Source of the DNA: Candidatus Omnitrophota bacterium
Lineage (GTDB): Bacteria > Hinthialibacterota > Hinthialibacteria > Hinthialibacterales > JAKPRU01
DNA: 64,000 bases
Assembly (NCBI GenBank): GCA_029570205.1
Contig: JAKQSI010000118.1
Coordinates: forward strand, 114,421-178,420
Direction: 5' to 3'
This document shows positions 22,442-59,660 of this stretch, piece by piece. The translations under genes were made by a program, and so were the position numbers. The notes under the pieces are model-generated. The model was not told the DNA's origin and ran no database searches. It saw only the letters and a program-made list of their open reading frames with translations. Position 1 is the first letter of the stretch. Every line of letters begins with the position of its first letter.

Positions 22442-24157
22442 ATGAAACGGCTGCAGCTCCATGTCGGAATTAAAACCGACCCGATTGAATACCGATATTC
22501 ATACGAATGGCTGTTCCGCCTTCTGGCCGAGGAGGGAATACACTATGCGCAGTTGGGGACATTTCATGAAATCTATTCCCTGCCGGATGAGTACTTCCTG
22601 AACCTCAAAAAACAGGCGGACGATTTCGACGTTGTCATTTATAGTGTCTTTTGCGCACACCGCGAAATGGGCGGATTCTTCCGCGAGGAACCCGGCTGGG
22701 ATGATCTCGCTCGCCGGGATTTCAGACGATTGATTGAGGTTGGCGCTGTGCTGGGTGCGGCCTCCGTCGGCTCCAATGCCGGCTCTGTGCTGCGAGACCG
22801 TATGGGGACTAAGCCGGTGGGCATTCGGCGATATGTCTCCGAAATGAAACAATTTATGCACTATGCGAAACGCTGCGGGGTTCCCTGGCTGACCGTCGAG
22901 CCGATGTCCTGTCTTGCCGAACCGCCGACGCTCCCCGAAGAAATCCAGGATATGGCGGAGGAACTCATTCCGTATCACCGGGAACTCCCCGATGAAACCT
23001 CCATGTTCGGCTATTGCTCCGATGTCAGCCATGGATACGCCGACCGCAACCGGCGGGTTCGAGCCGATCATGTCAAACTTTTAACAGCCTCATTTCCTTA
23101 TCTTTACGAGATTCATCTGAAGAATACGGATGAATGCTATGACCGGACTTTTGGATTCTCAGAAGAAGAAAGGAAACGGGGCATTATACAAATCGATGAG
23201 ATGCGAGACCTGATCCTCGCTCATGCGGACGAGATTCCAGTGGACACGATTATCGGCTACTTCGAGATATCCGGGCCAAAGCTGGGGCGGGACTACTCCG
23301 ATTCCCTCCTGGAGGCCAATCTGCGGGAGTCTCTGCGTTATTTGAGAGATACATTCGTTACACCCAGTGCATCAGTCCTCACGCTCAGCCCCTCTCCAAG
23401 TGTGGAGAGGGGAGCCGCAGAGATTGTCTTGCCCCCTCTTCCTCCAGGAGAGGGTGAGGGAAAAGCATCCCAGATCGAAATCGCCCCGTCCATGATGTGC
23501 GCCGATCTTTGCCATTTTGAGGAAAGCGTCCGGCGACTGGAGCGTGAGGGTATTCACAGCCTTCATTTCGACATGATGGATGCCCATTTTGTCCCCAACA
23601 TGCCTGTCGGTCTCGACCTTCTCAGGCAGATTCGCACCAGGACCGACTGCCTTTTCGATGTTCACCTGATGGTGGAAAACAATGACTTCTTTATCGAGCA
23701 GCTCGCGCATATCGGCGTGTCTCGAATCTCAGTCCATGCCGAGTCCGCTGTCCACCTGGACCGGACTCTGGCCCTGATTCGAGAAAAAGGAATGAAGGCC
23801 GGTGTCGCGCTGAATCCGGCCACACCGCCGACTGTTCTTTCATATATCCTGAACCGTCTCGATTTCGTACTGGTCCTGACGGTGAATCCGGGATTTTCCG
23901 CGCAGATCATGGTCCCGTTCGGCATCCACAAAATCGCCGACTGCCGCGCATTCCTTGACGGACATAATTTAAGAATCCCGATCCAGGTGGATGGAAATGT
24001 GAGTTTCGAGAAGATCCCGCAGATGGTGGCCGCCGGAGCGGATATCCTTGTAGGCGGAACCAGCAGCGTCTTCTCGAAGACCGGCTCCATTCGGGAGAAC
24101 ATCCGCCGTATGCGCGATGCCGTTACAGAGGGGCTACAGCAGCGTTCCCGTGCTTGA
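22442..24157 (+). CDS. Fusion of a TIM-barrel sugar isomerase/epimerase with ribulose-phosphate 3-epimerase
   Basis: A 571-residue two-enzyme protein. Residues 1-305 are a xylose-isomerase-like TIM barrel (sugar phosphate isomerase/epimerase family) with GSNAGSVL and WLTVEPMSC and a late EIHLKNTDECYD. Residues 342-565 are a ribulose-5-phosphate or allulose-6-phosphate 3-epimerase: APSMMCADL, LHFDMMDAHFVPN, DVHLMV, TVNPGFSAQ and QVDGNVS keep the metal ligands and catalytic Asp residues, though SAQ replaces the usual GGQ. The linker, residues about 312-340, is translated palindromic repeat DNA rather than normal protein sequence. GAGG is eight bases before the ATG. No frame break was seen. Confidence 0.82.
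   Translation: MKRLQLHVGIKTDPIEYRYSYEWLFRLLAEEGIHYAQLGTFHEIYSLPDEYFLNLKKQADDFDVVIYSVFCAHREMGGFFREEPGWDDLARRDFRRLIEVGAVLGAASVGSNAGSVLRDRMGTKPVGIRRYVSEMKQFMHYAKRCGVPWLTVEPMSCLAEPPTLPEEIQDMAEELIPYHRELPDETSMFGYCSDVSHGYADRNRRVRADHVKLLTASFPYLYEIHLKNTDECYDRTFGFSEEERKRGIIQIDEMRDLILAHADEIPVDTIIGYFEISGPKLGRDYSDSLLEANLRESLRYLRDTFVTPSASVLTLSPSPSVERGAAEIVLPPLPPGEGEGKASQIEIAPSMMCADLCHFEESVRRLEREGIHSLHFDMMDAHFVPNMPVGLDLLRQIRTRTDCLFDVHLMVENNDFFIEQLAHIGVSRISVHAESAVHLDRTLALIREKGMKAGVALNPATPPTVLSYILNRLDFVLVLTVNPGFSAQIMVPFGIHKIADCRAFLDGHNLRIPIQVDGNVSFEKIPQMVAAGADILVGGTSSVFSKTGSIRENIRRMRDAVTEGLQQRSRA
23377..23460. repeat. Palindromic repeat forming an in-frame protein linker
   Basis: Two hairpins: CCCCTCTCCA/TGGAGAGGGG at 23389-23412 (10 bp perfect), and CCCTCT/AGAGGG with inner CCT/AGG at 23434-23454. 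The outer ends CCTCACGC and GGTGAGGG are roughly inverted. The same family is intergenic at 24172-24211, 32375-32414 and 59551-59588. The 84-base length keeps the frame. Confidence 0.75.
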
Positions 24158-24171
24158 ATGTCCGGTTTCTG

Positions 24172-24211
24172 CTCCCTTTCCCTCCGGGAGAGGGTTGGGG
24201 TGAGGGCTAGG
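24172..24211. repeat. CCCTCTCC-GGAGAGGG palindromic repeat
   Basis: The reverse complement matches 32375-32414 closely (GCCCCTCACCC...CCCTCTCCCGGAGGGA...). It lies between the fusion gene and the convergent tyrS gene, 16 bases before the tyrS stop. Confidence 0.75.
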
Positions 24212-32374: not shown

Positions 32375-32414
32375 CCCCTCACCCAGTCCCTCTCCCGGAG
32401 GGAGAGGGAGAAAA
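32375..32414. repeat. CCCTCTCCCGGAGGGAGAGGG palindromic repeat
   Basis: Stem CCCTCTCC/GGAGAGGG around CGGAG, preceded by CCCCTCACCCAGT. It matches the reverse complement of 24172-24211. It ends 63 bases before the phosphatidylserine-decarboxylase-like start. Confidence 0.8.
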
Positions 32415-59550: not shown

Positions 59551-59660
59551 GCCCCTCATCCCAACCCCCCTTCCGGTGCGAGAGGGAGTATTCTTCCGTC
59601 ATTCCGGCGGAAGCCGGAATCCTGGGAGAAAGAGCGGGTGGCGCACGCTTCCAGCCTGTG
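59551..59660. repeat. Three dispersed elements in the gap
   Basis: 59551-59588 is a decayed CCCCTCATCCC...GAGAGGGAG element; 59597-59623 is the GTCATTCCGGCGGAAGCCGG element with its hairpin; and 59641-59660 is a decayed CACAGGCT-type hairpin. They lie between the convergent isomerase and membrane protein genes. Confidence 0.7.

Follow-up and report, generated by a model that had tools for sequence, protein, structure and literature searches.

An inverted pair of BoxC/TM-type repeats in the linker of a sugar-epimerase fusion that probably predates it

The window, the stretch of 64,000 nucleotides analysed here, carries on its forward strand a gene (22442..24157) that forms a single open frame of 571 codons and encodes a protein of 571 residues, in which a xylose-isomerase-like TIM barrel is followed by a linker and by an epimerase of the ribulose-phosphate 3-epimerase (RPE) family. 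Most of the linker consists of a genome-wide repeat, present in two inverted copies. The sequence comparisons presented below make it very probable that this is an old, presumably bifunctional enzyme and that the repeat pair was absorbed later, as tolerated filler, into a linker that already existed, and was not the cause of the fusion.

The N domain (aa 1-305; 22442..23356, forward strand) was matched in a profile search by PF01261 (AP_endonuc_2 / xylose-isomerase-like TIM barrel) with 42.8 bits, compared with a gathering cut-off of 31.1 (E 7e-11). The C domain (aa 347-571; 23480..24154, forward strand) corresponds to a complete RPE, since PF00834 covers aa 346-558 with E 6e-60. The equivalog profile TIGR01163 scores 215 bits on this half (E 7e-64), just over its curated cut-off of 212.6, and the AlsE profile NF007266 falls under its own cut-off. 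The preliminary description had placed an isomerase/epimerase barrel and a complete RPE in one frame, and the 571-codon frame and the PF01261 and TIGR01163 scores bear this out. The C domain contains the RPE active-site pattern Ser, His-x-Asp, His, Asp (S350, H375, D377, H408, D517). Neither these residues nor E153, D194, H225 and E275 of the N domain vary across 38 fused proteins. The invariant residues in both domains are those expected at the active sites of the two families. The C domain thus resembles the RPE family (TIGR01163, PF00834) in being whole and in retaining its active-site residues; unlike an ordinary RPE, it is the C-terminal half of a fusion and belongs to a subfamily of its own, separate from that of a second RPE gene in the same genome.

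A search by sequence for solved relatives of the N domain returned none that was convincing. When the model of this domain was compared with known structures, the closest folds were 4k3z, 3qxb and D-tagatose/D-psicose 3-epimerases, with TM-scores of 0.71-0.82 depending on the target; 4k3z, from Brucella, was deposited as a D-erythrulose 4-phosphate dehydrogenase. The N domain shares with these xylose-isomerase-like barrels the fold and the Glu-Asp-His-Glu metal-site pattern, but is only 14-19% identical to them. The AlphaFold2 model consists of two confident barrels separated by residues with pLDDT below 50 (aa 310-342), and the linker that lies between the profile matches (codons 306-346, 41 residues; 23357..23479, forward strand) is accordingly predicted to be a disordered, flexible tether. 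Pairwise dN/dS values among the three species of the genus (G000, the genome of the window, and G001 and G002) are 0.04-0.14 in each domain, which indicates that both are under purifying selection.

The repeat occupies 23377-23460, where it was found to consist of two inverted units about 20 nt apart rather than of one palindrome. It belongs to the BoxC/PIT/TM type (see below) and reads in frame as LTLSPSPSVERG...LPPLPPGEGEG. Unit 1 (23389..23412, reverse strand) has the stem CCCCTCTCC-loop-GGAGAGGGG, with the palindrome CCTCTCCAAGTGTGGAGAGG at 23391-23410, and its third block (23377-23384) is degenerate. Unit 2 (23434..23460, forward strand) reads CCCTCTTCC-loop-GGAGAGGGTGAGGG; according to the alignment its second loop has been lost and its third block merged into the stem. 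The pyrimidine-purine stem, CCCTCTCC/GGAGAGGG with a short loop, is therefore perfect in unit 1 and has one change in unit 2, and the third purine block, GGGTGAGGG, which follows a second loop of 3-4 nt, is degenerate in both. This block is intact in the orthologue of G001, whose linker retains one full repeat unit, and in unit 2 of G002. The core palindrome pattern occurs twice in the window, where 0.07 occurrences are expected, and a slightly longer form occurs 38 times on the forward and 36 times on the reverse strand of the whole genome, compared with 1 for the reversed control. The linker palindrome is not due to chance.

The three-block pattern as a whole is intact at 20 sites in the genome of G000, at 19 in G002 and at 201 in G001; the reversed control gives 0. 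Palindrome counts are uneven across this small phylum, with 238 in G001, 112 in G007 and 0 in G004, G006, G008 and G010; in G011 the reversed-pattern control is also high, at 32. The preliminary description named three relatives of the repeat within the window. Two of these are clear copies, at 32375-32414 and at 24170..24206 on the forward strand (given earlier as 24172-24211); the third, at 59551-59588, is strongly degenerate. The copy at 24170 lies a few bases past the stop of the fusion gene and is present only in G000, G001 and G002 having none at the corresponding place. This copy may serve as a 3' hairpin of the fusion gene.

Judged by its sequence, the linker repeat is the BoxC / PIT / TM intrastrand-triplex motif (Holder et al. 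2015, PMC4666352), known from more than 260 genomes besides that of E. coli, for which the three-block consensus CCCTCTCCC-loop-GGGAGAGGG-loop-GGGTGAGGG was defined as BoxC / PIT / TM(ECO) (PMC4666352). Across the genomes of the genus the repeat shares with that motif the consensus, the inverted pairs, the multiple copies and the variability between close relatives. Triplex formation is an in vitro property of BoxC/PIT/TM, to which the repeat of the window is assigned by its sequence. In E. coli MG1655 the copies are reported to be always intergenic, at times as inverted pairs (PMC4666352), whereas here a pair lies in frame within a conserved enzyme and single copies lie in two further genes, described below.

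As had been proposed, this is repeat DNA that has become coding, and it stands in frame in the linkers of all three species of the genus; the search of close relatives found it at the same site in G001 and G002. Their orthologues are full length and in a single frame, with 94 and 90% identity. Every linker alignment gap among the three species is a multiple of 3, so that the frame is kept through the linker in three separately assembled genomes. The earlier statement that the 84 bases of 23377-23460 preserve the frame holds in this sense. The length, however, varies: counted from the alignment, the orthologous spans are 90 nt in G002 and 78 nt in G001, and 84 nt is therefore no fixed insert size. 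The linkers as a whole are 41 residues long in the window and 50 and 56 in the other two species. These observations bear on the possibility that the fused gene is an assembly artefact, a chimera of two contigs joined through the repeat. Repeats are where assemblers fail, and all three genomes are multi-contig assemblies; yet the three show the same order, shared flanks and species-specific linkers that each keep the frame, and the same fusion is found in many other assemblies that have no repeat. We consider an artefact of this kind to have a negligible probability.

The repeat might instead have been kept by selection, if the triplex or hairpin pair slowed the ribosome or polymerase between the two domains and thereby aided the folding of each barrel or set the ratio of the domains. 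The linker strand folds better than shuffled sequence (z -2.6), and the pair is retained in all three species, though the downstream copy at 24170 is confined to G000. Nevertheless, part of the motif is gone from unit 2 of the window, such a repeat is missing from the linkers of most fused relatives, and no promoter, terminator or in vivo effect was reported for the E. coli motif (PMC4666352). A selected role for the pair is in our judgment quite improbable, and we prefer to regard it as filler.

The preliminary description proposed that insertion of the repeat had removed the stop of the first gene and so created a bifunctional enzyme. The repeat is indeed placed exactly at the junction, and adjacent unfused genes are known, in two Phycisphaeraceae loci (L120 and L123, the contig of the latter ending inside RPE). 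To be set against this are the relatives outside the genus. In three genomes of another order in the same class (G010, G012 and G013) the protein is fused in one frame at about 58-60% identity, with linkers of 40, 29 and 29 residues that contain no repeat. A wide scan, in which each species was represented by a single genome, located the N domain at 80 loci, and at 47 of these it is fused to an RPE of the same subfamily. According to the phylum names given in the sequence records, in which the two loci of the genus appear as Omnitrophota, the fused loci belong to Planctomycetota, Verrucomicrobiota, Lentisphaerota, Hydrogenedentota, Armatimonadota, Sumerlaeota and Hinthialibacterota. Their linkers are 21-90 residues long (median 27) and rich in Pro, Ala, Ser, Thr, Glu and Gly. 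The repeat pair is restricted to the two loci of the window's genus, and the 45 fused loci outside it have none. The preliminary description had named many unrelated genomes sharing the fusion, with a conserved linker free of the repeat, as evidence against its proposal; such genomes are many and their linkers are free of the repeat, but these linkers are variable. Among the unfused loci, one (L153) has the two genes on the same strand about 2 kb apart, and others, in Spirochaetota, Verrucomicrobiota, Bacteroidota and elsewhere, have them in the same neighbourhood on opposite strands. Viral contigs searched for relatives of the gene contained none, and a search for this exact fusion found nothing relevant in the literature library used. 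The wide spread of fusions that lack the repeat led us to reject it as the cause of the fusion.

The trees also bear on the idea that the insertion joined adjacent genes within the genus itself. The N-domain tree places all 48 fused rows in a single clade of 61 rows (100/100), whose other members are 10 unfused rows and 3 truncated ones; the window's genus lies within this clade, in an unresolved fan that also contains unfused rows. The tree of the RPE domain nests the genus within a clade of 50 rows (98/92), of which 48 are fused, 1 is adjacent and 1 is solo. The solo RPE, from G052 (L243, G052:C16), is the sister of the genus, and being unfused it counts in favour of a local origin. Its upstream region, checked for an N-domain gene or a decayed remnant of one, contained neither, and dehydrogenases lie downstream. 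This locus is best read as a loss of the N domain, and it is the one observation that leaves a small chance of loss followed by independent re-fusion in the genus. Since the genus RPE lies inside the fused clade, a fusion made by the repeat would need just such a loss and re-fusion, in the same order and orientation, and we regard it as very unlikely. The distribution and the trees together indicate that the fusion of the N domain with RPE is old, is shared by many phyla and predates the genus.

We also looked at the surroundings of other copies of the repeat. A two-sided hexamer test was applied to 103 repeat sites, drawn from G000 and from a sample of those in G001; coding sequence lay on both sides of 3 of the 103, but of 393 of the 725 control positions taken from those loci (P 3e-27). 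In this genus BoxC/TM strongly avoids genes. The three coding sites are the fusion linker and two O-antigen-ligase-like (Wzy_C) genes, in both of which the repeat sits past the membrane domain, so that all three fall in loops or linkers between domains. In the first, a Wzy_C/TPR gene (L069:529-3288, G000:C9), a 30-aa in-frame insert is made up of TM and a second palindrome, GGGCGACGCATGCGTCGCCC. The insert is absent from the orthologue in G002 (920 aa in G000 and 890 aa in G002, with 95-96% identity on either side), and in the G001 orthologue this loop is filled by another sequence. The second (L070:1489-3375, reverse strand, G000:C9) carries TM in frame in G000, G001 and G002 alike, the G001 gene differing in length by 11 residues. 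Five of the six reading frames of the motif are open, which makes its absorption into coding sequence easy. It seems about an even chance that stop-poor BoxC/TM repeats, hitherto regarded as intergenic, recurrently enter genes in frame as inter-domain linker filler, and that through gain and loss of units in steps that keep the frame several genes of the genus come to differ in linker length from one species to another.

The absorption of a palindromic repeat into coding sequence is a known kind of event, seen with Rickettsia palindromic elements and intragenic MITEs (PMC10969869), here involving BoxC/TM. Rickettsia palindromic elements, in the account of Ogata et al. (2000, 2002) cited in PMC10969869, lie in frame in protein-coding genes, to which they add a tolerated peptide. 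The likeness is one of arrangement and is put forward as an analogy, and the Wzy_C/TPR gene shows the same pattern of an in-frame insert with an empty site in a close relative. The present units differ in being about 33 bp long, compared with about 150 bp, and their coding copies are rare (3/103) and lie between domains. The present repeat also resembles intragenic ERIC and other MITE-type elements (PMC10969869) in being small and mobile-looking and in fusing in frame with host ORFs; the motif here is without demonstrated terminal repeats, target duplication or transposase.

In most relatives the two genes, fused or separate, lie beside two genes that we take to be MDR-type dehydrogenases, often with what is presumably a DeoR-type regulator, names that come from sequence motifs rather than from a profile search. 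Loci L103-L182 display this widespread cluster, made up of the xylose-isomerase-like barrel, the RPE-family epimerase, the two dehydrogenases and often the regulator. The dehydrogenases adjoin the fusion in G010, G012 and G013. In the window's genus the fusion stands alone: the regions flanking the orthologues of G001 and G002 contain no dehydrogenase partners, and the rest of the genus's three genomes gives weak matches only. The likeliest setting would be a pathway in which a sugar or polyol must pass through two steps of epimerisation or isomerisation, and the RPE half could act on a ketose phosphate other than ribulose 5-phosphate. Channelling of a ketose-phosphate between the joined activities, as suggested in the preliminary description, would be hypothetical, and the model shows a disordered tether between the barrels.

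As a whole, these results favor a history in which a xylose-isomerase-like sugar epimerase/isomerase was flexibly tethered to an RPE-family ketose-phosphate 3-epimerase long before the genus arose, usually within a catabolic cluster that held the two dehydrogenases and often the regulator, and in which the fusion reached several phyla by spread or by inheritance. Two inverted repeats of the BoxC/PIT/TM triplex type would have landed as a pair in the inter-domain linker in the ancestor of the genus. No fused repeat-free relative is known within the genus, and we infer insertion into the linker from outgroups at about 58-60% identity. It would have been harmless wherever the frame held, because the motif is nearly stop-free and any flexible sequence can be accommodated in the linker. 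The repeat would then have drifted, gaining and losing pieces in three-base steps, and it now accounts for 26-30 or more linker residues. The neutrality of the linker, the mode of insertion and the substrates of the enzyme are what we infer from these comparisons. A tempting story, in which a repeat makes a new enzyme, is thus corrected to an ordinary one, in which a repeat enters an existing linker. BoxC/TM inside reading frames, with an empty site for comparison, is unreported for E. coli MG1655 in the main paper on the motif (PMC4666352). The widespread fusion itself marks a candidate sugar or polyol pathway that would be worth assaying.
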